DNA from: Roseiarcus fermentans
GTDB taxonomy: Bacteria > Pseudomonadota > Alphaproteobacteria > Rhizobiales > Beijerinckiaceae
Assembly: GCF_003315135.1 (NCBI RefSeq)
Contig: NZ_QNRK01000002.1
Coordinates: 221,113 to 285,112, forward strand
DNA: 64,000 nucleotides
Reading direction: 5' to 3'
Part shown: one piece after another, positions 4,875-45,836 of the stretch
How positions within the stretch are numbered: position 1 is the first letter of the stretch
Layout: each line of letters begins with the position of its first letter
Position numbers and translations under genes: made by a program
The notes under the pieces: generated by a model
The model's input: the letters and a program-made list of their open reading frames with translations, nothing else
What the model was told of the DNA's origin: nothing
Databases searched by the model: none

Positions 4875-7826
<2,952 letters not shown>

Positions 7827-7894
7827 GGGTCCTCGACCGAAACGCTCGAGCCTCGAGCGGGAATCGCGCTTGCGCGCGTCTGTCGCCGATGCTA

Positions 7895-7909: not shown

Positions 7910-8193
7910 AAGGGGAAGGCGATCCGCCCCGGCTCACGCTTAAATAGGCGCGGCGGCGCGCTTTCCCAAGCGGCAGCCGCCCGCGTTTGTGGACAAGTGG
8001 CGTTCGAGCGCGTTTCCAACGCGTCGCTCCCGGCGCCTATGCGCTATGGAAGGCCGAGCGCGCGGCGCGCGAACCGCGCCGCCTCCGGCCGCGCCCAGAG
8101 GCGGCGGCGGCGACCCCGCCCTGCAAGGCGATGTTTTGACTGCGCTCGGAGCGCGGCGGGCGCGGGCGACCGCGCCATTTCGAGGAGGTCCCC

Positions 8194-8709: not shown

Positions 8710-8746
8710 TCAACACACTTTCTTTCTGTAACGAGAAATTCCACAA

Positions 8747-8770
8747 GGGCCGCAGACATGCGGCCCCTTT
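8747..8770 (+). terminator. Rho-independent terminator of ssb
   Basis: GGGCCGCA-GACA-TGCGGCCC forms an 8-bp perfect stem with a 4-base loop, followed by CTTT. It lies 38 bp after the ssb stop. The rest of the gap to 9036 shows no gene. Confidence 0.8.
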
Positions 8771-9036
8771 CGCATGACGTTCGCGTCGGCGCGGGCCTGT
8801 GGCGCAACCCGGACGATTTCCCAGCCGAGCGCCGCCACTCGTGACGCAGGCCGCAATCGCCGCGCCAATATCCGCATCCCCCACACGGGCCGGATCGATG
8901 GCGAGGCCTGCCGGCCGATCGCGCATCCTGCCGGCTTCAAGATGACGCAACTGACCTTGACGGAGAAAACGCGCAATACCACCCTCGGCCCAAAGTCAGG
9001 TCGAGACCGTCATCGCCCTGCAATTTTCGACCGAGG

Positions 9037-29284: not shown

Positions 29285-31072
29285 GTGTTTTGGCGCGCGC
29301 TTCGCGATCGCATGGCTTCGTTTCTCGACGCCTCCTCCAACGCCACCGTGCGCCGGCTGCTGTCGGACCAGGGCGCCAAGCACTGGAAAGGCTACGCTTT
29401 CGCCTTCGCCATGATGGGCCTGATCGCCGCGACCACGTCGCTGTCGGCGTGGATCATCGGCAAGATCGTCGACAAGATTTTCGTCGCCCACAAGCTCGCG
29501 GCGGTCTGGGAGATCACCGCGGCCATTGTCGCGATTTACGTCGTCAAGGGGTTCGCCACCTACGGGCAGCAGGTTTCGCTGTCGCGGATCGCCAACAGCA
29601 TCGTCGCCGACGTCCAGACGCGCATCTTCGACAAGATGCTACGCATGAAGGTCTCCTATTACAGCCGGTCGCATTCGTCGGAATTCATCGCGCGGCAGGC
29701 GTTCATCGCCCAGTCGGCGAGCGGTGTCCTCAACCTTCTGATCACCACCTTCTCCCGCGACGCGCTGACCATCGTCGGCCTCGTGATCGTGATGGTGTCA
29801 CAGGACCCGCTCTTGTCGCTGCTCGCCTTGATGTTCGTGCCGATCGCCGCGGTCGGCGTGCGCCAGATCGGCCAGCGCGTGCGCAAGATCATGGCGACCG
29901 AGTTCCAGGGCGCGATGCAGATGATGGAGTCGCTGCAGGAGACGGCGCAGGGCGTGCGCATCGTCAAGGCGTTCACCCTCGAAGACTTCATGCGCCAGCG
30001 CCAGGGCGCCGCGATCCGGGGCTTCCAAACGGCGGCCAACAAGCTCGCCTCAGTCAGCTCGCGCACGAGCCCGATCATGGAGAGCCTCGGCGGCTTCGCC
30101 ATCGCCGCCGTCGTGCTCTACAGCGGCTACACCGTCATTCTGCGCGGCAACCAGCCCGGCAGCCTGTTCTCGTTCATCACCTCGGTCATCATGCTGTACG
30201 AGCCGATGAAGCGGGTCGCGCGCTTCCACGTCGATCTGTCCTCCTCGCTGTTCGGCGTCAGCATGCTGTACGACTTTCTCGACGCGCCCGAATTCGAGGA
30301 GGATCCGCCAGGCGCGGACGACCTCGTGGTCACGGCCGGCCGGATCGAGTTCCGCGACGTGGTTTTCGGCTATCGTCCGGAAGAGCGGGTTCTCCATTCC
30401 GTCAGCCTCGTCGCCGAAGCGGGCAAGACGACGGCGCTCGTTGGACGCTCTGGCGGCGGCAAATCGACGGTGATGAGCCTCATCTTGCGGCTCTACGACG
30501 TCGAATCCGGCCAGATCCTGTGCGACGGCGTCGACATCGCGACGGTGACGCGCGACTCGGTGCGCCGGCAGATCGGTTATGTCGCGCAGGAGAACTTCCT
30601 GTTCAAGGGCTCGGTGCGGGACAACATCGCCATGGGACGGCCGGGGGCGAGCGACGAGGAGATCGTCGCCGCCGCCAAGGCCGCCTACGCCCACGATTTC
30701 ATCATGGATTTCGAGCGCGGCTACGACACGCCCTGCGGCGAGCACGGGATGCAACTGTCAGGCGGCCAGCGCCAGCGCATCGCGATCGCCCGCGCCTTCC
30801 TCAAGGACGCCCCGATCATCCTGCTCGACGAAGCGACCTCGGCGCTCGATTCCGAATCCGAGCAGGCGATCCAGAAGGCGCTGCAAACCTTGTGCGAGGG
30901 CCGCACCACCCTGGTCATCGCGCACCGCTTGTCGACAGTCGCCCAGGCCGACGAGATTTGCGTCATCGACCACGGCCAGATCGTCGAGCGGGGCCGTCAC
31001 CGCGAATTGCTGGCCAAGGGCCATACCTACAGTCTGATTGCGCGGACCCAATTTCCGAGGGACGCAGCGTAA
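29285..31072 (+). CDS. MsbA-like ABC exporter (fused membrane and ATPase domains)
   Basis: A homodimeric-type exporter of about 595 residues: six membrane helices in residues 20-325, then an ABC ATPase with Walker A GRSGGGKST, Q-loop YVAQENFLF, signature LSGGQRQRIAIARAF, Walker B IILLDEATSALD and H-loop VIAHRLST. It resembles the MsbA/lipid-A-core flippase group, but substrate cannot be told. AAGGAG at 29271-29276 sits 8 bp before GTG 29285; TTG 29282 is an alternative start. It precedes the polysaccharide gene block, so export of a glycolipid is plausible. The 295 bp after it hold no gene. Confidence 0.88.
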   Translation: MFWRALRDRMASFLDASSNATVRRLLSDQGAKHWKGYAFAFAMMGLIAATTSLSAWIIGKIVDKIFVAHKLAAVWEITAAIVAIYVVKGFATYGQQVSLSRIANSIVADVQTRIFDKMLRMKVSYYSRSHSSEFIARQAFIAQSASGVLNLLITTFSRDALTIVGLVIVMVSQDPLLSLLALMFVPIAAVGVRQIGQRVRKIMATEFQGAMQMMESLQETAQGVRIVKAFTLEDFMRQRQGAAIRGFQTAANKLASVSSRTSPIMESLGGFAIAAVVLYSGYTVILRGNQPGSLFSFITSVIMLYEPMKRVARFHVDLSSSLFGVSMLYDFLDAPEFEEDPPGADDLVVTAGRIEFRDVVFGYRPEERVLHSVSLVAEAGKTTALVGRSGGGKSTVMSLILRLYDVESGQILCDGVDIATVTRDSVRRQIGYVAQENFLFKGSVRDNIAMGRPGASDEEIVAAAKAAYAHDFIMDFERGYDTPCGEHGMQLSGGQRQRIAIARAFLKDAPIILLDEATSALDSESEQAIQKALQTLCEGRTTLVIAHRLSTVAQADEICVIDHGQIVERGRHRELLAKGHTYSLIARTQFPRDAA

Positions 31073-31367
31073 AAAGAGCAGTGAGACCGCGCTCCGGAAT
31101 GCGGATTCGGGCCACGAACGCTCAGCCATTGAGGAGCGCCCAAGTGGCCCAAATGAAAGGGTGATGTTACGGATCAACGGCGCACGGACGGTGTCCTTCG
31201 CCGGGTTAGTAGCGCGGTGTGAGCGTAGCCCACGTAGATCGTGGCTCTTGGGTCGCCTGAACCAGCCCCCGCACCTTAAGCGTGGACAGACAGCCGAAGT
31301 TCAATTACGGACTGGCCACAACAAAGGTGCATTTGCCGGAGAGAGTCCATTGGGCGAGATCTATAAG

Positions 31368-34300
31368 ATGCAGAAGGCCGACGAGAAGCTCCGCTTCACT
31401 GGCGAGCGCGTGACTTTCGACACAGAGGGTCAGGCTGTCTATGAGCATCTTCATCGGTACTTTTTCGCGCGTGAGATTTGTCGTGGCCTCGACGTCCTTG
31501 ATGTCGCTTCTGGAGAGGGTTACGGAGGAGCCTATCTCGCTCAAACCGCCCGCTCGGTCGTAGGCGTCGACATCTCCGCGGAATCCGTTACGCACGCGGA
31601 CGAGTGCTACGCGACCTCCAATCTCCGCTATGAGGTTGGAAATGCGACGAGCCTTAATTTTGCGGACGCGTCGTTCGATGCGGTCGTCTCGTTCGAGACG
31701 ATTGAGCACCTCGACGATCAAAAGGCATTCCTGAAGGAAATTCGCCGAGTCCTCCGTCCGAAGGGCCTGCTAATTGTCAGTTCGCCGAACAGAGACTTGT
31801 ACTCGCCCGTCGATACGCCGCCAAATCCTTTCCACGTCCGCGAACTGACGCGCGATGAACTTCTCGCTGCGCTCGGCGCCGAGTTCCGCTTCTGCATGAC
31901 CTTCGCTCAGCGGCCCCTGACGGGAACGCTTCTCATCGCTGAGAGTGGGACCGAGAAGGACCACGTCGCCCACTTTAGAACGTTCGAAAGGCGCGGCCAA
32001 GCTCACTTCGAGTCATCGGAGGGTCTGGCGCGGCCTCTTTACTTTCTCGTTGTCGCATCAAACAGTAGCCAGGTGCCGCTGTTCAGCAGCGTGTACATCG
32101 AAACCGGAGACGTCGACGCCTCAATCCGGTATCGAGGGATCGTCGACGAACTGCGGAGCACGAGCAACGCCGCGGTGCAGCAGGCCCGAGAGGCGGCAGC
32201 GAATTCGGAGGCCGAGGCGGAGCGGTTACGAGGCAGACTCGCGAGCGCGATCGAACTTGGAAGAAAGTCGGAGCAAAACGCTGCCCAAAACGCGTGGCTG
32301 CATACGCAGATTAGGCTGCTCAGCGACGAGCGCGACAATGTCGCCCGAGAGCTTTCGAAGGCATATCGCCGACCTTGGCGACCGGCAAAGTATTTGATTT
32401 ACCACTACGTTCTGCGCGCGCTCAGCGCCGCAAGCGGCCCGTTTTCGCGAGAGATGGCGGCGCGGCTCAAACGATCCGCGCAGAAGCGAAGCCCCACGCG
32501 GTTCGACAGGAGCGGCCCTGGAGAAGTCGATGTGTCCGCGCCTGTGGGCCCGCTGCCCGTGATGCCGATCGTACGCGGCGGCAGGATCCTCACGCAGGAC
32601 GATGCGCGGCTGATCACTCGCGCGGACGTAGATGAAGTCAGTTTGCCCACGCACGAAACACCGCTCGTTTCGGTCATAATCCCGAGCTACGGCAAGGCAT
32701 GGCTGACCTTGCAGTGCCTTCGGTCGATCGCCGACAATCCGCCGTCGACATCTTTTGAAGTCATTGTCGTCGACGATGCTTCGGGAGATCCCGACATCGA
32801 ACTGCTGCGCTTGGTCAAAGGGCTCCGGCTCGAAATCAATACGAGCAACCTCGGCTTTCTGAGGTCCTGCAACCGCGCCGCCGAGGAGGCCAGAGGCGAC
32901 TACCTCTTCCTCTTGAACAACGACACTCTCGTGTGTACTGACTGGCTAGAACCCCTGCTGGCCGTTTTCCAAGCATTTCCCGATGCCGGGCTCGCCGGCT
33001 CCAAGCTGCTCTTTCCCGACGGGTCTCTTCAGGAAGCAGGCGGGATCGTCTGGAACGACGGCTCTGCGTGGAACTACGGGCGCTCGGACGACCCGGCGAA
33101 GCCTGAATACAACTACGTTCGGCAGGCGGATTACATTTCCGGTTGCGCGATTCTGGTGCCCCGGCCGCTTTGGCGCGAACTCCACGGATTCGACGAACAT
33201 TTCGTCCCTGGGTATTGCGAGGACACCGATCTGGCGTTCCGCATCCGGGCGGCCGGCAAGACCGTGTACTACTGCCCCTTCTCGGTTGTCGTGCATCTGG
33301 AGGGCGCGTCGCACGGGAGGGACCTCACGTCCGGAATCAAGGCCTATCAAGTCGTCAATACGAAGAAGTTGTTCGAACGGTGGCGAGAAACGCTGACGGC
33401 GGAACACTGGCCCAATGGCTCGCACATCATGCGCGCCCGAGATCGGAGCCGGAACCGGAAGATCGCGCTGATCGTCGACCATTACGTCCCCGAACCGGAC
33501 CAGGACGCCGGATCGCGCGCGATGATGGCGGTGATCCGAGCGCTGCTGGATTGGGGTTATGTCTTGAAATTCTGGCCTGACAATCTGAACTACAGCGCCG
33601 AATACACGCCGCTCCTCCAAGGCCTCGGCATCGAGACGCTGTACGGACACTACCGGTCGTTCGGCGACTGGATTCGGGAGAACGGCGAAGAGATTGCGCT
33701 CGCCGTCCTCAGTCGGCCAGATGTGGCCGCACGTTATGTTCCCGAGCTGCGTGCTCATTCCGACGCGACAATTGCATACTACGGTCACGACCTGCATTTC
33801 AGACGATTGGGCATGGAAGCAGAAGCGAAAGGCGATTCCGAACTCGCCGCCAAAGCCGCCGATATGGAGGCGCTGGAACGCTCGATCTGGCGCGCGGCCG
33901 ACATCGTTATCTACCTGTCCGAGGAGGAGGCTGCGGTCGCGCATCAGGAAAACGCTCGGGCGGCGGCAATCGTCCCCTACGCCTACGATGATTTCGCCAA
34001 TGCGCGCGTCCCACCGCAGGACCGCGAGATCATCTTCGTCGCCGGGTTCGGCCATACGCCGAACGCCGACGCCGCCGTATGGCTCGTCAATGAGATATTG
34101 CCGAAGATTGTCGATAAGGTTCCCGATGCGCGGCTGGCGATTGTCGGGTCCAATCCGACCGAGGCCGTGCGGGCGCTGGCGAGCGACCGTGTCGAGGTTA
34201 CAGGGCAGGTGAGCGAGGAGGAGCTCCGCGCCCGCTACGCCAGCGCGCGCCTTGCGCTGGTGCCTCTGTGTACGGGCGCCGGTGTCAAGTCCAAGGTGGT

Positions 34301-34547
34301 CGAGGCGCTCCGTGAAGGCTTGCCCCTCGTGACGACCAGCGTCGGGGTGCAAGGGCTGCCGGGCGTTGAGCATATCGTCGTCGTGGCAGATGACGCTCAG
34401 CGCTTGGCCGACGCAGGAGTGGAGTTGCTTCGCGACAATTCGCTTTGGGCGCAAGTGTCTCGCCAGCAGATTGAGTATGCTCGCGAAAACTTCTCTCTTG
34501 ACGCTTTTAGTCGTTCTCTCGAAAAAGCGCTTGGCAGATCGATATAA
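31368..34547 (+). CDS. Trifunctional methyltransferase / GT2 / GT4 glycosyltransferase
   Basis: A 1059-residue cytosolic protein in four parts. Residues about 1-230 are a class I SAM methyltransferase (VLDVASGEGYGGAYLA, FDAVVSFETIEHLDD, LRPKGLLIVSSPN). About 265-345 is an Ala/Glu/Arg-rich likely coiled coil. About 430-690 is a GT2 domain (VSVIIPSYGKAWLTLQCL, VVDDASGDPD, LLNNDTLV, EDTDLAFRIRAAG). About 710-1059 is a GT4-like domain (IALIVDHYVPEPDQDAGSR, GFGHTPNADAAVWLVNEILP, CTGAGVKSKVVEALREGLPLVTT). The order fits assembly and methyl capping of a surface glycan chain. Start ATG 31368 matches the beginning of the methyltransferase fold; upstream in-frame sequence is not protein-like. Confidence 0.85.
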   Translation: MQKADEKLRFTGERVTFDTEGQAVYEHLHRYFFAREICRGLDVLDVASGEGYGGAYLAQTARSVVGVDISAESVTHADECYATSNLRYEVGNATSLNFADASFDAVVSFETIEHLDDQKAFLKEIRRVLRPKGLLIVSSPNRDLYSPVDTPPNPFHVRELTRDELLAALGAEFRFCMTFAQRPLTGTLLIAESGTEKDHVAHFRTFERRGQAHFESSEGLARPLYFLVVASNSSQVPLFSSVYIETGDVDASIRYRGIVDELRSTSNAAVQQAREAAANSEAEAERLRGRLASAIELGRKSEQNAAQNAWLHTQIRLLSDERDNVARELSKAYRRPWRPAKYLIYHYVLRALSAASGPFSREMAARLKRSAQKRSPTRFDRSGPGEVDVSAPVGPLPVMPIVRGGRILTQDDARLITRADVDEVSLPTHETPLVSVIIPSYGKAWLTLQCLRSIADNPPSTSFEVIVVDDASGDPDIELLRLVKGLRLEINTSNLGFLRSCNRAAEEARGDYLFLLNNDTLVCTDWLEPLLAVFQAFPDAGLAGSKLLFPDGSLQEAGGIVWNDGSAWNYGRSDDPAKPEYNYVRQADYISGCAILVPRPLWRELHGFDEHFVPGYCEDTDLAFRIRAAGKTVYYCPFSVVVHLEGASHGRDLTSGIKAYQVVNTKKLFERWRETLTAEHWPNGSHIMRARDRSRNRKIALIVDHYVPEPDQDAGSRAMMAVIRALLDWGYVLKFWPDNLNYSAEYTPLLQGLGIETLYGHYRSFGDWIRENGEEIALAVLSRPDVAARYVPELRAHSDATIAYYGHDLHFRRLGMEAEAKGDSELAAKAADMEALERSIWRAADIVIYLSEEEAAVAHQENARAAAIVPYAYDDFANARVPPQDREIIFVAGFGHTPNADAAVWLVNEILPKIVDKVPDARLAIVGSNPTEAVRALASDRVEVTGQVSEEELRARYASARLALVPLCTGAGVKSKVVEALREGLPLVTTSVGVQGLPGVEHIVVVADDAQRLADAGVELLRDNSLWAQVSRQQIEYARENFSLDAFSRSLEKALGRSI

Positions 34548-34834: not shown

Positions 34835-35875
34835 TTATGCGTAATATTTCACCCATTCAGGGTCTTTAAGACGAACAGCTGTCGATGCTCTACGATTACG
34901 GTAAAATTTCTCTGGCCAACCTTCTTCCGCACTTTTCGTGAAATAAGCCAACATCAGGGTGGGCCTGATGCATCCTGCATCCAAGAGTATATCATTCAAA
35001 CGGCTCAGAAATTTTATCCACTCGACGTCTTCTGACTTGCTCACGTCGTAGGCGCGCCCATAGCCGCGATCAACGATCAGGTCGACGAAGCCGCCACAGC
35101 CAAGAAACTTGTACGGGTGGAAGCGCTCAAGTATGAGCGGGAGTACGTCCTGTGCGCGAATCCCCTCGAAGCCGTCGCTGGAGCAATCGTGGTCTGTGAA
35201 CGTGTCATCGAGGCGCTTGAGTTGGGCGTGCCATTTTTCGCTATCGCTAAGCATAGGCCAAAACGCTTTGATGATGGCGGCGGTCTCGGGCCAGCGCATA
35301 TGACCATTCCGGCCAATCATGTCGTTTGTTGCAAATATCCCCCGATCCCTAAGATGAGATTTCAAATAATCAAATATTTTCTCAAGCTCAACAATATGGT
35401 GCAAAGAATGGTTGGCCATGATCATGTCGAACCTGCGATCCGGCAGACTCAAATTCAAATCGACTTCGATTGTTTCAATATATTTGCCGAGGTTCTTTAA
35501 GTCTGCTTTTTTACGCAAGCGATCTAAGAGTATCGGAGACAAATCAGCGCATGTCATAACAAATTTACTTTCGCCTTTGCTGAGTAGATATTCTACTATA
35601 TCAAGTTCCACGCCCCCGTCTCCGCACCCTATGCTCAGAATCCTACCCGTATTGTTCATTAATCTACTAATAAATGCCGTATTCTTCTTTGTTTCCAGGT
35701 ACGCCTTGGCGTAGAATTCAGGGATAGTCGTAACCCCGAAAACCTCAACCAGCCCGGGATTGATGAAGCCGTGCGACCATATGTGAAACGCTTCTGGGAG
35801 GTCGTGGATGTTGTCACAATTGGCGTACTGTTCGATTTGTTGCTTCACGCGATCTTCGTACGACACCGAGCTCAT
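34835..35875 (-). CDS. SAM-dependent methyltransferase
   Basis: A 346-residue class I methyltransferase. The SAM-binding motif I is RILSIGCGDGGVELDIVEYL (about 77-96), followed by FVMTCADLSP (motif II), the DLNLSLPDRRFDMIMANHSLHHI region (motifs III-IV) and LRDRGIFATNDMIGRNGHMRWPETA. Substrate is unknown; neighbours suggest a sugar or glycan. The gene is markedly richer in A+T than those on either side and uses more AT-ending codons, a sign of recent acquisition. The 287 bp on its right (34548-34834) hold no gene that I can support. Confidence 0.82.
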   Translation of the reverse strand: MSSVSYEDRVKQQIEQYANCDNIHDLPEAFHIWSHGFINPGLVEVFGVTTIPEFYAKAYLETKKNTAFISRLMNNTGRILSIGCGDGGVELDIVEYLLSKGESKFVMTCADLSPILLDRLRKKADLKNLGKYIETIEVDLNLSLPDRRFDMIMANHSLHHIVELEKIFDYLKSHLRDRGIFATNDMIGRNGHMRWPETAAIIKAFWPMLSDSEKWHAQLKRLDDTFTDHDCSSDGFEGIRAQDVLPLILERFHPYKFLGCGGFVDLIVDRGYGRAYDVSKSEDVEWIKFLSRLNDILLDAGCIRPTLMLAYFTKSAEEGWPEKFYRNRRASTAVRLKDPEWVKYYA

Positions 35876-35940
35876 TGACTTTTCCCTTCTGCTGTGACGG
35901 CCGTTTCAGGATAGCAAGCCGATCGAGCGGCAGACGCGCG

Positions 35941-38289
35941 TTATGATGGCTGCGGTAGGCGACGTGTCGCTTTCTTCAGGGTTTTTAGTTCAGCGATCAC
36001 TGTTTCTAGCACAAGCTCCTCGGGGCCAACAGATAGCAGGTCAAAATTGTTCATCAGATCGAAAAATGTTAGACGTGAGATCGTTTCGGTCGAGTTGAAT
36101 CTGGGCGTGACGGGTGCCCGAATCCTCTTCCACACGACGGTCTGCGCATTACCCGCCTCAACAATTGTCTTGAATGACAAAGTCGGCATGAAATCGTGGA
36201 TGAACGCGATGACCTTGAAAACGTCTCCGTGCCAGGCGGGTCCGCTGCCGCCGTTCATCTCTCGGAACTTAATTGCCTCACCGTGATCTCTGAGGGAACT
36301 GAAGACATCGGACGGCAACACGTCATCGATCAGAATTACGGAGTTTGTATGCGTCATCGTCAGTACGGACATCAAGTCTCTTAAAGTCTGTTCATACGTG
36401 TGCAAGCCATCCAGAAAAACCAGATCGTAGACCCTCTTGTCGCCCTCCATTGAAAAAAACTCATCGCTGATGACAGGGAAAAAATCGATGCTCTTTTCGG
36501 CGAATTCTTTAGGATCGAACCTAAAATTGGGATCGACTCCAGTCTTTCGTTCTACGTTTACTCGGAAAAATGTTTCACCTCTTTCCACCCCAACTTCCAG
36601 ATAGGTCGTTGCCTTAAGACCCGAAGCAAGCGTGTTAAGTCTCCTGGCCGTGTGCGTTAAATTTGGCATATTTTCTCCTGACTCGACACCATGAGGCGCG
36701 GGGCCGGTATTAAGGAGGTCTCGTCCAGCAAGTCTTTGAATCGAACGGCGCAACGGCCTCGTCGCGCGACGAATGGACACAGCGGCTCCATTCAGTTTTC
36801 GTCCGAGCGGAGTCGCGAGCGAACTCTTTGGCTTCCCCTTTTGCATCTCGCGCTCAGTACTCCCGCGAGGCTCCGGAAGCGGCTCTCGCATTCTTTCAAA
36901 ATATGCAGCGGCAAATACGGCAAGTTCATCAAGTTTACGAAAATTGTAATTCTCGTGAAGAAGCGCTCGCTCCAGCTCGCTTGGGGGGCTTTCGCGTGTC
37001 TCGCTCACGTCTTCTATAAAGTCTTCCGGGATGTAGACAGGAGGAACGCCATCCTCGACTTGGCTCGCCACCCAAGGCGCAGGATTCAGCGCCAACGTTC
37101 GCGGGTTGGAGTGAACCAATCCCGGCACGCGGTGGAACCAGCCTAGCTTGTGCTGCACTGTGCCGTGATGGGAAAAATAGGCAGGAACGTATCGGCCACA
37201 AGCAACGCTGCTCCGGATGTCCAGTCCGGCAGTGACGAGGATTTTCTCTTCTATGCGAGGGACATCAGACAAGGCGTCCACTATCGATCTACCCAGCGCC
37301 AGATCGCCCTCCACCAGGCGCCTGTACTCGTCGCGGCTATAACTCGCATTTTCAAGAAAATCTGCGGGCAGAGAGTGCCCATCGAAGAAGAAGCTGGCGT
37401 CTGGGAGCGCGCGCAGTACCTCGCGGACAATTCCGACCACAGCCGGCACAAAATTCGTCGCCGTCCGATTGCGGGAGCGCAACGAGACGGCGTACGGCCT
37501 GCGAGCCTTACAAAAGGCCAGAGCCGTTGGATCGTTTCGCTCTGCGAACTCCTCACATAGCGTCTCAAGTTCGGCACGTATTTCTGAAGTCACGAGTGTG
37601 TTGCCGACAGCCACGAAGCGGGTGTGCGTTTGATTAAGCTTTTCAAGCTCGATATCGCGTACCGTACTGATCCGATCCGTTGACAGTCCGGTCAAAGTTG
37701 AAATTTTCCCGATCGGCTCGTGAGTAGCTACAACGACAAAATCTTTCGACTGTGCACCGATACTACGCAGCGCAGAGAGCTGATTCCAAATGAAATGCGC
37801 AAAATTCGAATCCCCCGTCAGAACCGTAACAACGTTGTTTGCAGCGGCCCGCGGTTCATACAAATTATGCATGTGCGGACGGAATTTCTCCAGAAGCTGA
37901 CGGTTGACGCCCCAAACTGGATCGCCAAGATTAAAACAGCATTGGCTGTCAATATCGATCAAACCTGTCAGCGGGAAGCCCAAAGAGAGATTTGTTGCGA
38001 TGACGGCGTAGTTATCAGATCCTTCTAACCGATACAATACTGATTTATCATCTACAACTATAGCTTCTCTTGCTGTATAACAGCCCAAATTAAATGCACC
38101 GTTGCAAATATATTCTGTTTGATAAGGCAGCGGATCCTTACGATTTCCAATGGCACTCCGAGCCGTCATTGCCTCACATAGTTTTTTTACTTTCGGCGGC
38201 AGTCCACTGATCGACTGCTGAACCTGGATGATCGAAAGATCATTACAAAACATCTTGAACCTTGGCGATGGAACGTAGGCAGATCTCAA
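35941..38289 (-). CDS. Large two-part protein with C-terminal methyltransferase
   Basis: A 782-residue protein. The C-terminal 270 residues are a class I SAM methyltransferase of the cephalosporin-hydroxylase/Methyltransf_24 kind: LEVGVERGETFF, VDPNFRFDPKEF, YDLVFLDGLHTYEQTLRDLMS and SVILIDDVLPSD. The N-terminal 430 residues are not firmly recognised; VVTVLTGDSNFAHFIWNQLSAL resembles the opening of GT61-like or capsular polysaccharide glycosyltransferases. A basic, Arg-rich linker (about 460-520) joins them. It is AT-rich like the next gene and transcribed the same way 65 bp upstream of it, so the two probably came in together. Confidence 0.7.
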   Translation of the reverse strand: MRSAYVPSPRFKMFCNDLSIIQVQQSISGLPPKVKKLCEAMTARSAIGNRKDPLPYQTEYICNGAFNLGCYTAREAIVVDDKSVLYRLEGSDNYAVIATNLSLGFPLTGLIDIDSQCCFNLGDPVWGVNRQLLEKFRPHMHNLYEPRAAANNVVTVLTGDSNFAHFIWNQLSALRSIGAQSKDFVVVATHEPIGKISTLTGLSTDRISTVRDIELEKLNQTHTRFVAVGNTLVTSEIRAELETLCEEFAERNDPTALAFCKARRPYAVSLRSRNRTATNFVPAVVGIVREVLRALPDASFFFDGHSLPADFLENASYSRDEYRRLVEGDLALGRSIVDALSDVPRIEEKILVTAGLDIRSSVACGRYVPAYFSHHGTVQHKLGWFHRVPGLVHSNPRTLALNPAPWVASQVEDGVPPVYIPEDFIEDVSETRESPPSELERALLHENYNFRKLDELAVFAAAYFERMREPLPEPRGSTEREMQKGKPKSSLATPLGRKLNGAAVSIRRATRPLRRSIQRLAGRDLLNTGPAPHGVESGENMPNLTHTARRLNTLASGLKATTYLEVGVERGETFFRVNVERKTGVDPNFRFDPKEFAEKSIDFFPVISDEFFSMEGDKRVYDLVFLDGLHTYEQTLRDLMSVLTMTHTNSVILIDDVLPSDVFSSLRDHGEAIKFREMNGGSGPAWHGDVFKVIAFIHDFMPTLSFKTIVEAGNAQTVVWKRIRAPVTPRFNSTETISRLTFFDLMNNFDLLSVGPEELVLETVIAELKTLKKATRRLPQPS

Positions 38290-38630
38290 CGAGATCCCGA
38301 CTTCGGCTAGCCTTGCAAGGCTATAAATAAAGGACCAATTAGATCAGCGACAGCGCCATGACAAGGGCGCATTCTGAATTCCGTCGGATCTTTCGTTGGG
38401 GCCTCGAGACATGGGTTGTTTGTGTCCTTGTGGTCCAAAAAATAAGGAGGGCGGGGCCTAATTTTTGGTCACCGCTACGACACCCTGCAAGCCGCTGCTA
38501 TTTCGAGTTCAGACCCATAGACACGCGCGGAAGGCGCGAAAGGCGGCGCAAATCCTGGTTGGACGCCGGGGCTCGCCGCTCACGGCGGAGCCGTCGCCTA
38601 CGCGCACCCGCCGGGGTGGGGAGGACGCAG
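38290..38630. other. Gap without a recognisable gene
   Basis: 341 bp marking the change from AT-rich (left) to GC-rich DNA (right). AT-rich sequence at 38280-38345 probably holds the promoter of the 782-residue protein. The GC-rich remainder shows no gene; a small reading frame from 38358 is not convincing. Confidence 0.5.
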
Positions 38631-39839
38631 TTACCGGGGGTTATCAGTCCGCTCCGCGCTCCCGCGAAACAGGGCGCCTCCCGCTTCCTCCGTATCGATC
38701 AGGTCCGCCAGCGCGCAGGTGATGTGGTACATCGAGCTTCCCGGCGCAGGCTCCTCTATCCAGCCGCCGTCGGCCCTGAGCTTGTCGCGCCAGGCCCCGC
38801 GCGCCGGCGTGTCGAAATACCGGAGCAGCCCGGCATAGGCGGCGGCGGCCTCGGCGCGCTCGTCGGCTTCGCCGGTGCGGCGGTAGCGGGCGACGGCCGC
38901 CTTCAGCCGCTCCGTCTGCGGCCACAGGCGCGCCGCCCGGTTGCGAACCGAGCCGTCGGTCAAAACCTCGTTGATCGTGATTCCTCGTTCCGCATCGATG
39001 CCGTGGCGGCGGCCGAAGCGCGCGAGCCGGTCCGAGATCGGCGCCGCATCGGCGACGCCCCACTGCCCCAGTCGTTCGAACAGCCAGGCCCACTCGAAGC
39101 AGTGCCCCGGCTCGACGACTCGGCCCTCCTCGCCCGCGACCGGCGTGAGGTCGGCGTCGAAATATTCGAGCAGCGCTCCGGTTTCGCGATGGAGGAACGA
39201 TCGCCGGCACAAGGCGGCGACGTGCTCCGCGTCGCGCCGCCAACGGGCATCGCCGGTCGCGTCGTAAAGCGCGATGAAGCTCTCCAGGAGATGCATGTGC
39301 GGGTTCTGGCGAAAGGGCGGGCAAACCGCGATATCGCCCTCGTGATATCCCCCGTGCGGCAGGCGCCATTGGGCGTCGAGCGCGTCATCGAGCGCCGCCG
39401 CCGCTTCGAACAGGTCCGGACGCCCGAGCGCGCGGCCCGCGTGGGCGAGCGCAAGCAACATGAAGGCCTGATCGTACAGGTCCGCCCGGGCGTCGAACAC
39501 GGCGCCGCGATGGTCGAAGCGGTGAATGTAGAGGCCGTCCGCACGGCGCCCGCGCTCGACGAGGAAGTCGACGTTTGTCTCGACCATCCCCCGCCACGGG
39601 CCGCTCCAGCCCAGGCGACCGAGTTCGCAGTAGGAAAAGACGTGGCGCGCCTGAACGAACATCCGATGCGGGCAGGCCTCCTTCTCGCCGTGAATCGACA
39701 TCCGTTCCGGAAAGAGCGGACCCTCCGGCTCGGCGCGCCAGAGCGGGGCGGCGTCCAGGAACAGCCAGTCTCGCGCATGGGCGGCCAGTTCGTTCAGCGT
39801 CGCCGTCGGGCCCGGCTTGGCGGCTCGCGCGGTATTCAT
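38631..39839 (-). CDS. AGE family sugar epimerase/isomerase
   Basis: A 402-residue (alpha/alpha)6-barrel of the N-acylglucosamine 2-epimerase/mannose isomerase family. Landmarks are CPHRMFVQARHVFSYCELG, DLYDQAFMLLALAHAGRALG, FRQNPHMHLLESFIALYD, the conserved His-containing VVEPGHCFEWAWLFERLG and RLWPQTERLKAAVA. Members epimerise or isomerise mannose, GlcNAc or related sugars; mannose-6-phosphate isomerase-like activity would fit supply of a mannose or heptose precursor. It overlaps the preceding nucleotidyltransferase-phosphatase gene by 4 bp, so they form an operon and probably one pathway. Confidence 0.88.
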   Translation of the reverse strand: MNTARAAKPGPTATLNELAAHARDWLFLDAAPLWRAEPEGPLFPERMSIHGEKEACPHRMFVQARHVFSYCELGRLGWSGPWRGMVETNVDFLVERGRRADGLYIHRFDHRGAVFDARADLYDQAFMLLALAHAGRALGRPDLFEAAAALDDALDAQWRLPHGGYHEGDIAVCPPFRQNPHMHLLESFIALYDATGDARWRRDAEHVAALCRRSFLHRETGALLEYFDADLTPVAGEEGRVVEPGHCFEWAWLFERLGQWGVADAAPISDRLARFGRRHGIDAERGITINEVLTDGSVRNRAARLWPQTERLKAAVARYRRTGEADERAEAAAAYAGLLRYFDTPARGAWRDKLRADGGWIEEPAPGSSMYHITCALADLIDTEEAGGALFRGSAERTDNPR

Positions 39840-41083
39840 CGAACGCTCTCCAGGGTCATGGACGCGCGCCGGAACCCGACCCCGTCAGCGAACCGCGGGA
39901 CGGATTGCAGGAACGCCAGAAGGTCGCCGCTGCGGAAGAGGGAACCGGGCAGCCCCGCGGCCTCCGCCGCCTCGATGTCGCTCGCCTTGTCCCCGATCAG
40001 GAAACTCCCTTCGCGCTCGACCGGCCAGCGATCAAGCAGGTCGACGATCATCCCGGGACTCGGCTTCCGCCAGTCGTGCGCGGCGCGATAGGCCTCGACG
40101 CTCCCCTCCGGATGGAAGGGGCAATAGCGCCAGTCGTCGATCGAAGCGCCGATCGACGCCAGTTCCTGCGCCATCCAGCGGTGAAGGGCGACGACGTCGG
40201 CCTCGCCGTAGAGCCCGCGGGCGACGCCCGCCTGGTTCGTGACGACAAAGACATAGTAGCCGGCGTCGTTGAGCGCCTTCACCGCCTGCCGGGCGCCGGG
40301 AACCCACTCGACCTGTTCCGGCGCGTGGACGTAGCCGTGATCGATGTTGAGAATCCCGTCCCGGTCGAGAAAGGCCGCCGGGCGGCGGCGCGGCAGGAGG
40401 TCGCCTTCGACTGCGGGAGCGTCCGGAACGGCGGCGTCGACGTAGAGCCCGGAATAGGCGTAGCCCCGCAACGCGCGGCGCGCCGCCAGCCCGGGCAGGA
40501 TGTCGTTCTCGAGCGACGAAGCGCCGTCGCACCCCTCGAGCATCCGACGGGTGAAGTAAGATACGCCGCCGTTGACGAGCGCCGACCCAGACCGCTCGTC
40601 GGGCGAATGGATCGTCGTCACCAGGCTTCCATCCAGGTCGACTGGACCGTATCGATCCGGGAACGCGGTCGCCCGCAAGGCCAGGGCCGCCCCGACGCGC
40701 TCCCGCCGGGCGCGGGCCATGAGGTCGAGCCAGTTGAAGTCGAACCACCCGTCGCCGTTCAACAGCAGGAAGTCGTCGCGCAAACGGTCCCGGGCGCGAC
40801 CGATCGCTCCGCCCGCGCCCGGCGCGGCCGGCTCCACCGAAAGCTCGACCCGACACGAGAAGCGTTCCTCGAGCCGGCGCTCGGCGACGAAGGCGGCGAC
40901 GGCCTCGCCGCCGCCCCCTGCGAGCAGCAGAAACTCGTCGAAGCCGCGCCGCCGCGCTTCGAACAACAGCGTTTCGAGCAATGCGCACCCTCCGGCCTCC
41001 GCAAGGGGCTTCGGCCCGGCGGTCGCCGTCTCGCCGAGCGCGGCTCCCGGTCCTCCGAGGAGAATGGCGCATTGATTGGGCAA
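39836..41083 (-). CDS. Fusion of sugar nucleotidyltransferase-like domain and GmhB-type phosphatase
   Basis: A 415-residue fusion. Residues 1-225 resemble HddC/GlmU-type sugar-phosphate nucleotidyltransferases (AILLGGPGAALGE, PKPLAEAGG, DDFLLLNGDGWFDFNWLDLMAR, VNGGVSYFTRRML). Residues 235-400 are a HAD phosphatase of the GmhB (heptose bisphosphate) type: AAFLDRDGILNIDHGYVH, VTNQAGVARGLY, CPFHPEGS, WRKPSPGMIVDLL and GDKASDIEAA. The nucleotide-binding loop, normally GGxGTRL, reads GGPGAALG, so the usual Thr and Arg are lost. It overlaps the AGE epimerase gene and diverges from hldE, pointing to heptose metabolism. Confidence 0.85.
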   Translation of the reverse strand: MPNQCAILLGGPGAALGETATAGPKPLAEAGGCALLETLLFEARRRGFDEFLLLAGGGGEAVAAFVAERRLEERFSCRVELSVEPAAPGAGGAIGRARDRLRDDFLLLNGDGWFDFNWLDLMARARRERVGAALALRATAFPDRYGPVDLDGSLVTTIHSPDERSGSALVNGGVSYFTRRMLEGCDGASSLENDILPGLAARRALRGYAYSGLYVDAAVPDAPAVEGDLLPRRRPAAFLDRDGILNIDHGYVHAPEQVEWVPGARQAVKALNDAGYYVFVVTNQAGVARGLYGEADVVALHRWMAQELASIGASIDDWRYCPFHPEGSVEAYRAAHDWRKPSPGMIVDLLDRWPVEREGSFLIGDKASDIEAAEAAGLPGSLFRSGDLLAFLQSVPRFADGVGFRRASMTLESVR

Positions 41084-41477
41084 GTCGAATCTCCCAGTGA
41101 AATCAGCCGCCTCGAGCCGCCTGCGGCGGCGAACGGCGTTCGGTCCCGTCCAAAGGTCGGGTCAGGCGCCGCTCGTACGCGGCGTCGGCCCCGCCGCGCA
41201 ATCTCTGCGTTGTGGCCGCCGCCCTCGCCCTTCAGCGGGCTGAGGATCGGCGCGCTCCTCTTCCGTGTAGCGTCGACCAATGATGAACCCAGACAACCGA
41301 ACGCCGCGCCTTCGGAGAAGCCCGCGCGCTGCCAGCCCGCCCGGTCGCAGCGCCCCGGGTCGGGGTCGCGTTCCGGAACAGAGATTCTCATTTACGGTGT
41401 TTTCCAAGCCAAGCCAACTGTGGTAGAGACGCGGCCGCAGGGTTGTTATCAGCTGTTGCGGTGAACCATTGAACGTC
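41084..41477. other. Divergent promoter region between the heptose genes
   Basis: About 390 bp separating two divergent gene sets of one pathway. I see no reading frame or RNA that can be supported. The AT-richer end (41385-41470) suits the hldE promoter. No clear operator palindrome was found. Confidence 0.5.
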
Positions 41478-42947
41478 ATGCAGGTTACAAACCCGTCCTG
41501 GGTATCGAGGTGGCGCGGATCCAGCGTGTTTGTCTTGGGCGACGTGATGCTCGACAAATTCGTGTACGGCCACGTCGATCGGATCTCGCCGGAAGCGCCG
41601 ATTCCGATCCTCCATCGCCAGTCCGAGACGGCGATGCTGGGCGGCGCGGCGAATGTCGCGAGAAACGTCGTCGCGCTGGGCGGCAAGGCCATTCTCGTCG
41701 GAGCGGTCGGCGACGACGCTGAGGGCGACCTGATCGCAGGACCGCTCGTCGACGGCGACGGAATCGTCGGGCGCTTCGTTCGGGCGGCGGGCCATCCGAC
41801 GACCACAAAGGTTCGCTACGTTTCGGGCGGCCACCAGCTCCTGCGGCTCGATATCGAGCGCCGGCTCCATCTCGGCCCGCACGACATCGACATGATCTGC
41901 GAGTGGCTGACGGAAGTCGCCGGCGAGATTTCGGCGATCGTTCTCTCGGACTATACGAAGGGCGTGCTGATTCCCGTCCTCGTACGCCGAATCATCGACA
42001 TCGCCCGCACGCACGGCATCCCCGTCGTGGTCGACACCAAGACCCGCGACGTCACGCGCTTCGCGGGAGCGACGGTCATGACTCCGAACGCCACGGAGGC
42101 GGCCATGATCACCGGCGTCGAGTGCGTGGACGATCATCACGCCGAAATCGCCGCGAAGATCCTGCACGAGCGGGCGAAAATCGACGCGGTGGTGCTCACG
42201 CGCGGCGCTGAGGGCATGACCATCTATCACCCGACCGATCCGGAAGGATCCGTCGTGCACGTTCCTACCCATGCGCTGGAAGTGTTCGACGTGTCCGGAG
42301 CGGGCGACACGGTGGTGGCCGCGCTGGCGCTGGCGCTCTCCGTCGGCGCCTCGATCATGACGTCCGCCCGCATCGGAAACGCCGCCGCCGGAATCGCCGT
42401 CGGCAAGCGCGGGACGGCGGCGGTGCGGGCGCGCGAACTCGCGACGGCGCTCGGCGGCGGCTCCGAAGGCGACCCGAAAATCGTCGACGGCGAAGCCGCC
42501 CAGGAAATCGTCGCGGATTGGAGGGCCCATGGCCTCAAGGTGGGATTCACCAACGGCTGTTTCGATCTGCTTCACCCCGGGCACGTCGAGCTTCTGAAGC
42601 GCTCGCGGGCCGCCTGCGACCGCCTGGTCGTGGCGCTCAACACCGACGCCTCGGTTCGCAAGCTCAAAGGCGACTCGCGCCCCGTGCAGAACGAACACGC
42701 GCGCAGCGTGGTGATGGCGGCGGTCGACAGCGTCGATCTCGTGACGCTCTTCGACGACGACACGCCGCTCGGCCTGATCGAGCTACTGCGGCCGGACTTC
42801 CTCATCAAGGGCGCGGACTATACGATCGAGACCGTGGTCGGCGCGGATCTGGTCGCGTCCTATGGCGGCCGCGTGCTGCTGGTGCCCATCGAACAGGGAC
42901 ACAGCACGACAGCGCTCATCGCCCGCGCCAACACGCGAGCCCGCTGA
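41478..42947 (+). CDS. hldE: Bifunctional heptose-7-phosphate kinase / heptose-1-phosphate adenylyltransferase
   Basis: HldE (RfaE), 489 residues. Residues 1-320 form a PfkB-type kinase (VFVLGDVMLDKFVYG, MLGGAANVARNVVALGG, catalytic VFDVSGAGDTVVAALALAL). Residues 350-485 are the cytidylyltransferase-like adenylyltransferase (VGFTNGCFDLLHPGHVELL, LNTDASVRKLKGDSRPV, LIKGADYTIE). The two activities give ADP-heptose precursors for the LPS core. The start at ATG 41478 is chosen; TTG 41469 is possible. It lies opposite the GmhB-like fusion, which would supply the intermediate phosphatase step between its two reactions. Confidence 0.95.
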   Translation: MQVTNPSWVSRWRGSSVFVLGDVMLDKFVYGHVDRISPEAPIPILHRQSETAMLGGAANVARNVVALGGKAILVGAVGDDAEGDLIAGPLVDGDGIVGRFVRAAGHPTTTKVRYVSGGHQLLRLDIERRLHLGPHDIDMICEWLTEVAGEISAIVLSDYTKGVLIPVLVRRIIDIARTHGIPVVVDTKTRDVTRFAGATVMTPNATEAAMITGVECVDDHHAEIAAKILHERAKIDAVVLTRGAEGMTIYHPTDPEGSVVHVPTHALEVFDVSGAGDTVVAALALALSVGASIMTSARIGNAAAGIAVGKRGTAAVRARELATALGGGSEGDPKIVDGEAAQEIVADWRAHGLKVGFTNGCFDLLHPGHVELLKRSRAACDRLVVALNTDASVRKLKGDSRPVQNEHARSVVMAAVDSVDLVTLFDDDTPLGLIELLRPDFLIKGADYTIETVVGADLVASYGGRVLLVPIEQGHSTTALIARANTRAR

Positions 42948-42958
42948 GCGGGGTATCC

Positions 42959-44215
42959 TCACCCGAGGCCCGTCCGTCGCTCGTCGGTCGGTGCGCCGCC
43001 CGACCCCGCGATCGCGGCGCTGTAACCGTCGCTGTCGGCGAGCCGATAGCCCGCCGCCACGACGGCGGCGCCGAACAAGCGCTCGGTCGCATGCTCGAGC
43101 CCGCCGTCGAGGAGGCCCTTCTCTTCCGGAAACTCAGCCGAAAGGGCCAGCGACCTCAGCGGCGCGAGCGCTTCCGGACGCACCCAGAACATGGTCCCGC
43201 CGAAGAAATCGAGACGGAAGCGGTCCCTCGGCACGCCCATTCTCTCCGCCAGCTCCAGCACCCGCTCCCTGTTGGTCGACCAGGACAGCGCCTCGGAATA
43301 GGTCCGGCTCGGCAACCGGAAGGCCCCCGGGCCCACCATGCCGATCGACGGGTCCCGCTCGAACAGGTCGAGAATCGATTGCGCGAGCCCGGGGGCGGCG
43401 AGCAGATCGAACAACAGCCGCCGCCGCCAGAGCGAGCCCATGTAGGACTTGCGCCCGCCGTCGGTGGATTTCTTGCCGTGGAGCTTGCAAACGTATCGGT
43501 AGCGGTCGAGCCTGCCGCGCTCGAGCAGCGTCAGGAACGGGCGCACGTCCCGGCCGCGATTGTCCATCACCTCGATCTCGGCGCGCGGGAACTCGCGGCG
43601 GATCGACTCGACGAGCCGTTCGCGCCCCGGCGTTGTGGTGACGATCAGGTCGAACGGAACGGAGAGGCGCCGCAGGACCCCGCCGATATCGCCCCATGTC
43701 TCCTCGTAATAGAGATGAACGACGATCGCGAGCGGATTGCCGACGGTCGGCCCGCCCCGGGCGCCCCGCGGCGCCGTCTCGTCGTCCCAGCCGTCGAGGA
43801 GTTCCGGATGAGCCGCGATCAGGTCGCCGTCGAGCGAAACGCCGATGTTGAACATGTGTTGATTGAAGGTGGTGAAGCGCTTGCGTTCGGGCTTCGGGCC
43901 GTAGCAGAACACCGAAAAATCCGGAAAGACGAGGGATTTCTTTTTCTTGAACAGCAGGGCGAGGCGCAGGCGCGCCCAGAGCGAGGTCAACGCGTCCAGC
44001 CGCTCGACCGAAAAATCCGCGGTCTCGATGACGAGGCCGCCGGCGCCTGCGGGAAGGGCGAAGTAACCGAGGCCGATCGAATAGGGCAGCAGCAGGTTCC
44101 GGGCCTCGTTGCGGCCCTCGACTCGAAGCTGCGCGATGTGGTCGTGCGCCTGCGGCTCGAGCGGACGCAGCCGGTACGCGCGCCGGAAGAACGATCGAAA
44201 ACGGCTCATCGACAT
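42959..44215 (-). CDS. RgpF-like rhamnan/polysaccharide synthesis protein
   Basis: A 418-residue protein. The C-terminal 250 residues match the rhamnan synthesis F (RgpF) family: IVVHLYYEETWGDIGGVLRR, FDLIVTTTPGRERLVESIRR, VMDNRGRDVRPFLTLLER, YRYVCKLHGKKSTDGGR and FFGGTMFWVRPEAL. RgpF proteins act in assembling rhamnose-type cell-wall or O-antigen chains and are predicted transferases. The N-terminal 150 residues are less conserved. It is convergent with hldE (11 bp apart) and divergent from the sulfatase gene. Confidence 0.88.
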   Translation of the reverse strand: MSMSRFRSFFRRAYRLRPLEPQAHDHIAQLRVEGRNEARNLLLPYSIGLGYFALPAGAGGLVIETADFSVERLDALTSLWARLRLALLFKKKKSLVFPDFSVFCYGPKPERKRFTTFNQHMFNIGVSLDGDLIAAHPELLDGWDDETAPRGARGGPTVGNPLAIVVHLYYEETWGDIGGVLRRLSVPFDLIVTTTPGRERLVESIRREFPRAEIEVMDNRGRDVRPFLTLLERGRLDRYRYVCKLHGKKSTDGGRKSYMGSLWRRRLLFDLLAAPGLAQSILDLFERDPSIGMVGPGAFRLPSRTYSEALSWSTNRERVLELAERMGVPRDRFRLDFFGGTMFWVRPEALAPLRSLALSAEFPEEKGLLDGGLEHATERLFGAAVVAAGYRLADSDGYSAAIAGSGGAPTDERRTGLG

Positions 44216-44318
44216 GCTGCTTCCCTAGCCGGGCCTTCCCGGCGCATCAACCTTGTCTCCGCGCTTGACCCGGTTGCGGAGGCCGCATAGCCAAGGCCGC
44301 CTTCCGATGGAGCGACCG

Positions 44319-45836
44319 ATGACCGCCGCCGCGCCGAACATCCTCCTCGTCATGGCCGACCAGATGGCGCCGGCGTTCCTGCCGTTCCATGGCGACGGCG
44401 TCACGCGCGCCCCGCACATGAGCGCGCTCGCCCGCGACGGCGTCGTGTTCGACGGCGCCTATTGCGCGAGCCCGCTCTGTTCGCCGTCGCGGGCGTCTTT
44501 CATGACCGGCCTCCTGCCCTCGCGCACCCGGGTCTACGACAACGCCGCCGAGTTCGCGTCCGACATCCCGACCTTCGCCCATTGTCTCAGGCTCCGCGGC
44601 TACCGGACGATCCTCGCCGGCAAGATGCACTTCTGCGGACCCGATCAGTTGCACGGGTTCGAGGCGCGGCTGACCACCGACATCTATCCCGCCGATTACG
44701 GCTGGACGCCCGACTGGGACCGTCCCGACGCGCGGCCGAGCTGGTATCACAACATGAGCTCGGTCGCCGAGGCCGGCGTGTGCGTGCGCACCAATCAGCT
44801 CGACTTCGACGACGAGGTCGCCTTCGCCTCGGAGCGGGCAATCTACGATATCGCGCGGGCGAAGGACCGGCGGCCGTTTCTGCTGGTCGCCTCCTTCACC
44901 CATCCGCACGACCCGTTCGCCGTGCCGCAGCGCTATTGGGATTTGCACCGCGACGAAGACATCGCCCTGCCGGACCCGACCGCGGCGGCCCTCGATCCGC
45001 ACGCGCGCCGCTTGCGTCATGTCTGCGCCATGGACGCCGAGCCGGTGACGGAGGCCCAGGTTCGCGCCGCCCGGCGCGCCTACCTCGGCGCGATCGCTTA
45101 CGTCGACGATCACGTCGGCCGGCTGACGGCCGCGCTGCGAGCGGCCGGGATGGCCGAGAACACGATCGTCGTCCTGACCAGCGATCACGGGGAAATGCTG
45201 GGCGAGCGCGGGCTCTGGTACAAGATGAACTTCTTCGAGGGCGCGGCGCGCGTGCCGCTGGTCATGGCCGCCCCCGGCCGCTTCGCGCCGCGGCGCGTCG
45301 CCGCCGCCGTCTCGCTCGTCGACCTTTTGCCCACGCTCGTCGACCTCTCGGGCGGCGACGCAGCCGCGCTCGCGGACCGAATCGATGGCCGCAGCCTGAC
45401 GCCGCATTGCGCCGGCCGCGCCGGCCATGACGAGGCGATCGGCGAGTACCTGGCCGAAGGCGCGATCGCGCCGATCGTGATGATCCGCCGCGGCCGGTTG
45501 AAGTTCATTCACTCGCCGCCCGATCCCGACCAGCTCTACGACCTCGGCGCCGATCCCGGCGAGCGCGACAACCTCGCCGCCGCATCCGCCCACGCCAAGA
45601 CCGTCGCCGCCTTCCGGGAGGAGGTTTCCCGCCGCTGGCGGCTCGACGCGCTCGACGCCGAGGTGCGGGCGAGCCAGCGCCGGCGCCGTCTCGTCGACGC
45701 CGCGCTCGCGACCGGCGCCGTCCGGGCGTGGGATTTCCAGCCGTTCCGCGACGCGTCGCGCGCCTACATCCGCAACGGCGTCGACCTCGACGATCTCGAA
45801 GCGATGGCCCGGTTCCCCCGCGTCGCGCGGCCGTAA
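44319..45836 (+). CDS. betC: Choline-sulfatase-type sulfatase
   Basis: A 505-residue cytosolic sulfatase in the alkaline-phosphatase superfamily. The formylglycine motif is C54-S-P-S-R58 in SPLCSPSRASFMTG, with metal ligands in ILLVMADQMAP and VVLTSDHGEMLGERGLWYK. The latter, with the ending WDFQPFRDASRAYIRN, is typical of choline sulfatases. Activity needs a formylglycine-generating enzyme encoded elsewhere. Product choline would feed glycine betaine synthesis, but betA/betB are not nearby. ATG 44319 is chosen because GGAG lies 6 bp ahead; ATG 44307 is possible. Confidence 0.88.
   Translation: MTAAAPNILLVMADQMAPAFLPFHGDGVTRAPHMSALARDGVVFDGAYCASPLCSPSRASFMTGLLPSRTRVYDNAAEFASDIPTFAHCLRLRGYRTILAGKMHFCGPDQLHGFEARLTTDIYPADYGWTPDWDRPDARPSWYHNMSSVAEAGVCVRTNQLDFDDEVAFASERAIYDIARAKDRRPFLLVASFTHPHDPFAVPQRYWDLHRDEDIALPDPTAAALDPHARRLRHVCAMDAEPVTEAQVRAARRAYLGAIAYVDDHVGRLTAALRAAGMAENTIVVLTSDHGEMLGERGLWYKMNFFEGAARVPLVMAAPGRFAPRRVAAAVSLVDLLPTLVDLSGGDAAALADRIDGRSLTPHCAGRAGHDEAIGEYLAEGAIAPIVMIRRGRLKFIHSPPDPDQLYDLGADPGERDNLAAASAHAKTVAAFREEVSRRWRLDALDAEVRASQRRRRLVDAALATGAVRAWDFQPFRDASRAYIRNGVDLDDLEAMARFPRVARP

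Follow-up and report, generated by a model that had tools for sequence, protein, structure and literature searches.

A heptose-pathway fusion of Roseiarcus fermentans with a probably decayed nucleotidyltransferase domain, beside an AGE-family gene proposed to take the place of gmhA

Described heptose enzymes and the Roseiarcus locus

In the ADP route to activated heptose, HldE supplies both the kinase and the nucleotidyl transfer and HldD is the epimerase, assignments with which the NCBIfam names agree. GmhA, a protein of the SIS fold, is the sedoheptulose-7-phosphate isomerase. Here we describe a gene of Roseiarcus fermentans in which an HddC-like nucleotidyltransferase is fused to a GmhB-like phosphatase, together with the AGE-family (GlcNAc_2-epim) gene and the hldE gene beside it. 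The window is the whole stretch of 64,000 nucleotides of contig NZ_QNRK01000002.1 that was analysed. On balance, we favour the reading that the fused nucleotidyltransferase has decayed, that the GmhB half works beside HldE, and that the AGE protein replaces GmhA.

The GDP route of Campylobacter, as outlined in PMC10680097, begins with the isomerisation of sedoheptulose 7-phosphate by GmhA; a phosphate is then placed on C1 by HddA, the one at C7 is removed by GmhB, and GMP is attached by HddC. For YpHddC, the account in PMC6981941 is that a GXGXR loop (10-GLGTR-14) and Glu80 of an EXXPLGTGGA motif hold the nucleotide. Structure 6jq8 is HddC with a GTP analogue. HddC is the best fold match of the N domain of the window fusion, and the Lys, base-binding Glu and metal Asp positions are present. 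However, the window protein reads GPGAA for GXGXR and EPAAPGAGGA for EXXPLGTGGA; compared with YpHddC, the Glu is kept, but the Arg and Thr of the loop and the Thr of the motif are lost. The C domain is 40% identical to E. coli GmhB (2gmw/3l8e), a D,D-heptose 1,7-bisphosphate phosphatase, and the examined HAD motifs are intact. It differs in being covalently joined to a nucleotidyltransferase domain and in scoring below the NCBIfam GmhB cut-offs, as other fusions scored also do.

The closest arrangement is found in the hddA-fusion-AGE operons of Xanthobacter agilis (L085) and Sphingomonas pokkalii (L111). Their fusions have the same architecture, adjoin an AGE gene and are nearest on the tree, but they have an intact loop and an hddA gene, whereas the window has hldE instead. 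The window AGE gene occupies the operon place of gmhA and, by our proposal, the same place in the pathway, but its product has the AGE-family fold and is not homologous to GmhA. The type III phosphomannose isomerase of Rhizobium meliloti is an AGE-family enzyme that converts fructose 6-phosphate to mannose 6-phosphate and back, which is the six-carbon version of the reaction we propose; it has another substrate and context. A literature search, whose coverage was partial and which is no proof of absence, returned no report of an HddC-GmhB fusion, nor one linking a 2-epimerase to GmhA, heptose or sedoheptulose.

The two domains of the fusion

The fusion is an uninterrupted reading frame of 415 codons, and both of its halves show the codon-position GC pattern typical of genes. 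Pfam places NTP_transferase at residues 7-183 (32.6 bits, cut-off 21.2) and finds HAD-type domains too, while the HAD-IIIA and histidinol-phosphatase-type domain models of NCBIfam are both over cut-off. These matches bear out the original prediction, made from the sequence alone, that an HddC-like and a GmhB-like domain are joined here. The predicted setting is also correct: the stop codon of the fusion overlaps the start of the AGE gene in a 4-nucleotide ATGA, and hldE starts 385 nucleotides from the start side of the fusion, on the opposite strand.

The nucleotide-binding loop was compared across 92 distinct full-length fusions collected by genome searches and a scan of named genomes. Partial fusions (e.g. 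L016 and L017) were excluded, and the divergent paralogue group of L032 and L034 was kept as part of the 92 and of the 89 reference rows used below. The loop is GGPGAALG in the window fusion and GGxGTRLG in its relatives. Arg15 is lost in the window fusion only (1/92) and none of the other 91 has the same GAALG loop; thus the changed loop, which had been pointed out for its missing Arg, is not a common variant of these fusions. The GXGXR motif is intact in 90 of the 92 and broken in two, the window fusion and its sister L003. L003 is the fusion of a Roseiarcus metagenome-assembled genome (the sister genome, G167), and the closest named relative is the contig L084 of a Roseiarcus metagenome-assembled genome. 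The window loop (GPGAA) has kept both glycines and lost the Arg, and the L003 loop, GESDARQG (ESDAR), has kept the Arg and lost both glycines; both proteins have Ala at the Thr/Ser14 position. L003 is also altered at Asp111, the metal Asp, which has become Glu, and at Glu84, Asn171 and Arg144. Within the base motif, the window fusion keeps Glu84 and lacks Thr90, which is the telling position, as the P-L positions of EXXPLGTGGA vary in intact fusions as well.

The changes are confined to one domain. When near-invariant columns are defined as those at least 95% identical among the 89 other fusions, the window fusion is broken at 6/34 in the N domain (Arg15, Thr20, Phe35, Thr90, Ile217 and Gly218) and at 0/31 in the C domain; L003 is broken at 9/34 and 0/31. 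The paralogues L032 and L034 are broken in both domains (10-11/35 and 7/32). The NCBIfam HddC model gives 45.5 bits for the window fusion, far under the cut-off of 300, and 44.8 for the sister, compared with 98.6-122.6 in six other fusions scored; intact fusions fail the cut-off too, so the cut-off itself is not decisive.

Rates of change agree in direction. Of the 92, the window fusion and L003 are the two with the least N-domain identity when it is set against that of the C domain. When a tree is built for each domain from the 36 rows closest in the C domain, the end branch of the window fusion is 0.87 (N) vs 0.16 (C), about fivefold, that of L003 is 0.59 vs 0.45, and their shared stem is 0.33 vs 0.055. 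The rate of non-synonymous change (dN) between the two sisters is 0.41 in the N domain and 0.20 in the C domain, a ratio of 2.07. One of 12 other pairs has a higher ratio (L117/L129, 3.36, from few differences), and the intact-fusion pair L004/L085 gives 1.67. The nucleotidyltransferase fold appears to be retained. The predicted model has a mean predicted local distance difference test score (pLDDT) of 89.2 and a predicted template modelling score of 0.91, and its best Foldseek match over the N domain is HddC 6jq8 (template modelling score 0.83 by target length, 20% identity). Residues 12-21, the loop region, have a pLDDT below 50 in this model and were not used as evidence.

The phosphatase half presents a different picture. 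DRDG, TNQ, RKP and GDKASD are intact in the window protein, and the examined HAD motifs are kept in L003 as well. The GmhB models of NCBIfam remain below threshold (PRK08942, 145.5 vs 178; TIGR00213, 132.4 vs 149.6), but neither cut-off is passed by any of nine other GmhB-bearing proteins scored. The PRK08942 score is not lowered either, as the sister scores 150.5 and five of six other fusions score 129.6-146.5; the remaining one, L023, whose phosphatase is dead, does not match PRK08942. In our reading, the C domain would still function as the C7 phosphatase (GmhB) on heptose 1,7-bisphosphate. The anomer could not be assigned from model scores: PRK08942 (beta) gives 145.5 and NF050049 (alpha) 88.8, but beta is also ahead in hddA-adjacent fusions, and the comparison is uninformative. 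In four other fusions from Martelella and Ancylobacter (L138, L141, L151 and L163), HAD motif IV, GDxxxD, reads GNxxxD, the first Asp having become Asn.

L023 (G180:C45, also L053), from the same genus as the window, is the mirror image of the window fusion, as judged from its motifs: an intact transferase with a dead phosphatase. Its N domain is broken at 0/34 near-invariant sites and its C domain at 16/31, and the phosphatase motifs are lost (DRSA, GDS, REP and GASNGE). It scores 117.3 bits with the HddC model, and the GmhB models fall short of E 1e-10. The G180 genome also has hldD and a GmhB-like protein apart from the fusion, as well as an hldE that is read in two frames and is 71% identical to that of the window.

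An AGE-family gene in the place of gmhA

The make-up of the heptose pathway in this genome had been called unusual, and gene content supports this: an AGE gene lies beside GmhB and HldE, and GmhA and HddA were not detected. The window hldE exceeds the cut-off of the TIGR02199 adenylyltransferase model and just misses that of the TIGR02198 kinase model (341 vs 345). On the same contig, 26 kb before the window start, lies hldD (C2:193935-194897, 349.3 bits, over cut-off). Searches of the window genome found no hddA at E <= 1e-8 and no gmhA at E <= 1e-15, a threshold at which a more diverged gmhA would be missed. For some genomes, these searches scored part of the first-look candidates (G000 gmhA, 12/20 and 15/20); a missed gmhA is unlikely but possible. 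No remnant of hddA was apparent beside the fusion, as tblastn of two HddA proteins against window positions 35801-44300 gave one chance-level piece (E 0.59). A megablast search of hldE against plasmids gave no match.

The AGE protein matches Pfam GlcNAc_2-epim at 219.4 bits, and the top fold matches of its predicted model (pLDDT 94.6) are epimerases and isomerases of the AGE family. They include D-mannose isomerase and YihS, and ketose-aldose isomerisation is therefore known chemistry in this family. Arg65, His183, Glu186, His246, Glu249, Glu310 and His372 are invariant in 40 aligned sequences; they make up a conserved pocket, which we take to be catalytic.

In the fusion loci, AGE and gmhA exclude each other. 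We counted an AGE gene as a neighbour at 100 bits or more within 6 kb and gmhA at 130 bits or more within 3 kb, both fixed cut-offs. AGE is near 22 of the 92 fusions, gmhA near 45, both near none and neither near 25 (Fisher p 2e-8). Among the 25, the contig or the fetched stretch ends nearby in some, and in L032 and L034 a gmhA-like gene scores lower. On the fusion tree, the neighbour must have switched between AGE and gmhA at least three times, so these are not 67 independent events. In the AGE tree, heptose-linked proteins are spread over several clades, and the clade of the window protein holds the hddA-fusion-AGE operons of Xanthobacter agilis, Sphingomonas and Sandarakinorhabdus.

Two genome sets extend the comparison to hldE. 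In the family set (298 genomes, 38 with hldE above 300 bits), 23 of the hldE genomes have AGE only, 12 have GmhA only (at least 160 bits), none has both and three have neither (p 1.7e-7). Within 5 kb of hldE, AGE occurs 19 times and gmhA six times, never together. The order set comprises 239 genomes, 31 of them with hldE and the window genome included; here AGE is linked to hldE in five and gmhA in ten, again never together. None of the genomes with AGE linked to hldE has a GmhA of at least 160 bits (family 0/19, order 0/5, the window genome being in both sets). The linkage of AGE and hldE agrees with replacement of GmhA in the sets examined; the pattern at genome level is weaker outside the family.

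Further contexts bear on the chemistry. Four AGE relatives (L056, L057, L058 and L060) adjoin genes for ManC-type mannose-1-phosphate guanylyltransferases (seen by Pfam in the loci L181 and L182 and by tblastn in L180 and L186). This suggests that they are phosphomannose isomerases, which fits an AGE protein that converts a ketose phosphate to a manno-sugar. Additionally, at L183 an AGE gene stands with individual genes for HddC-like, HddA-like and GmhB-like proteins, and there is no match to gmhA. We propose that the window AGE protein catalyses the sedoheptulose-7-phosphate isomerase step instead of GmhA, to which it is not homologous; this activity on heptose phosphate is one that we infer. 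We lean, by a little, toward a broader statement: that the AGE family would be a second, unrelated sedoheptulose-7-phosphate isomerase family, recruited on several occasions to replace GmhA in Alphaproteobacteria and some other Pseudomonadota, in GDP- and ADP-heptose operons alike, and that in the window this coincided with a pathway switch in which the HddC domain died and the GmhB half lived.

Features of the heptose locus in the window
Feature	Position	Strand	Details and basis
HddC-like nucleotidyltransferase / GmhB-like phosphatase fusion	39836..41083	-	415 residues, TTG start; Pfam and NCBIfam
Fusion N domain, residues 1-225: probably decayed HddC-like nucleotidyltransferase, fold kept	40409..41083	-	Alignment, trees, predicted model
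Altered nucleotide-binding loop GGPGAALG, residues 10-17	41033..41056	-	Sequence, fusion alignment
Fusion C domain, residues 234-390: GmhB-like HAD phosphatase; DRDG, TNQ, RKP and GDKxSD intact	39914..40384	-	
GGGAG, likely ribosome-binding site, 7 nucleotides upstream of the TTG start of the fusion	41091..41095	-	Sequence
AGE-family (GlcNAc_2-epim) protein, 402 residues; proposed sedoheptulose-7-phosphate isomerase replacing GmhA	38631..39839	-	
hldE: heptose-7-phosphate kinase / heptose-1-phosphate adenylyltransferase, divergent from the fusion	41469..42947	+	NCBIfam

Other genes surround this locus. Next to the heptose genes, at 42959-45836, lie a gene for choline-sulfatase, which exceeds the cut-off at 791.3 bits, and an RgpF-like gene; the sister locus L036 has both close to its fusion as well (83% and 75% identity). 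In L036 (G167:C41), positions 6401-8825, upstream of the fusion, hold by eye a glucose-1-phosphate cytidylyltransferase-like and a dTDP-sugar epimerase-like gene and no hldE. At 35941-38289 (-) the window encodes a 782-residue protein that matches Methyltransf_24 only at residues 607-657, the rest having no Pfam family at E 0.001. A 1169-residue open reading frame at 31038-34547 (+) appears by eye to be a methyltransferase joined to glycosyltransferase-like parts.

Alternatives, proposed history and route

Several observations weigh against the reading we favour. For the fusion, the window N domain retains both loop glycines, Lys25, Glu84, Asp111 and Asp216, and residual or altered activity is possible. 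Between the sisters, the ratio of non-synonymous to synonymous change (dN/dS) in the N domain is about 0.32 (dS is rough, with many synonymous differences); therefore, some constraint persists. The retained residues, a ratio below 1 and the retained fold of the model would all suit a regulatory pseudoenzyme that still takes a nucleotide or nucleotide sugar as ligand and regulates the phosphatase, in the way that GMPPA is thought to control GMPPB, and a GMPPA structure is among the fold matches of the fusion model. We consider this unlikely, because in the sister Asp111, Glu84, Asn171, Arg144 and two glycines of the loop are altered, so that the pair has no common intact ligand site, and because the N branch of the window fusion is very long. 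The original prediction, which allowed that the N domain had become regulatory or uses another substrate, is less supported on this point, as the two sisters are broken in the N domain only, at different sites, and the metal Asp of the sister is changed. An active transferase with an altered substrate or nucleotide is more improbable still. The kept glycines, metal Asp positions and Lys25 speak for it, but the loop Arg, Thr/Ser14 and Thr90 of EXXPLGTGGA are lost jointly, the loop is unique to this fusion in the set, and HldE already provides a heptose nucleotidyltransferase. A sequencing or assembly error in the loop is very hard to credit: the genome is a draft of 90 contigs, and nothing else points that way, whereas the frame is open throughout and the N domain of the sister genome is altered too, in a different way. 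The pattern looks like loss, with the N domains of two sister proteins decaying at differing sites. The window N domain is best read as a nucleotidyltransferase that has decayed and is probably dead. The cause of the decay is less uniform, as the sister genome G167 (96% complete) has a decayed fusion, no detected hldE and no HldD over cut-off; therefore, redundancy with HldE is not the whole cause in G167 as assembled.

Replacement of GmhA by the AGE protein meets points of its own. The loci are related by descent and the Fisher tests ignore kinship, so independence is overstated. At looser gmhA cut-offs, some genomes of the family have both genes (two at 130 bits, p 1.2e-5; four at 80 bits, p 3.7e-5). 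Among the hldE genomes of the order set, seven have both, 14 AGE only, six gmhA only and four neither (p 0.25); AGE is present in 14/18 without gmhA vs 7/13 with it. Outside the family, the presence of AGE is not significantly tied to the absence of gmhA, perhaps because AGE paralogues do other work. Additionally, hldE occurs with neither AGE nor GmhA in 3/38 genomes of the family (G050, G038 and G154) and 4/31 of the order (G359, G458, G465 and G496), which may have another isomerase or be incompletely assembled. The AGE protein could instead be a C2 epimerase of a heptose phosphate, or make mannose 6-phosphate, with the isomerase step carried out by an undetected enzyme; this concerns the AGE part of our reading only. 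The solved relatives act as epimerases or isomerases on other sugars, four relatives adjoin ManC-type genes, and the hldE genomes with neither gene, and those of the order with both, would be accommodated. But the AGE gene lies inside the heptose operon and never occurs with gmhA in the 92 fusion loci, and in neither genome set does any hldE have both within 5 kb. We regard such a role as the less probable one, though a more serious contender than any alternative for the N domain.

Based on these comparisons, we propose a history in which the ancestor had a working HddC-GmhB enzyme in a GDP-heptose operon (hddA, fusion, AGE), as in Xanthobacter agilis and Sphingomonas. The nearest fusion relatives (L085, L111, L113, L122 and L127) all have hddA, an intact fusion and AGE. 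In the window lineage, hddA would have been lost, and hldE lies at the position expected for hddA. HldE would phosphorylate heptose 7-phosphate and add AMP, and because it has its own adenylyltransferase, the HddC domain may have become superfluous. The NTP loop may then have decayed, so that the N domain stays as a folded, probably inactive appendage while the C domain continues as the C7 phosphatase serving HldE. The route would run from AGE to the HldE kinase, the fused GmhB, the HldE adenylyltransferase and HldD, yielding ADP-L-glycero-D-manno-heptose. Decay confined to one domain, gene content and gene order are what we observed; the activities and the order of events are all what we infer from them.

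Replacement of GmhA by AGE, if true, would explain genomes that make heptose without GmhA and would offer one specific gene in which the missing step can be tested. The fusion would also be a clear natural case of a bifunctional enzyme in which one domain decays and the other stays constrained, with its mirror image in the same genus.

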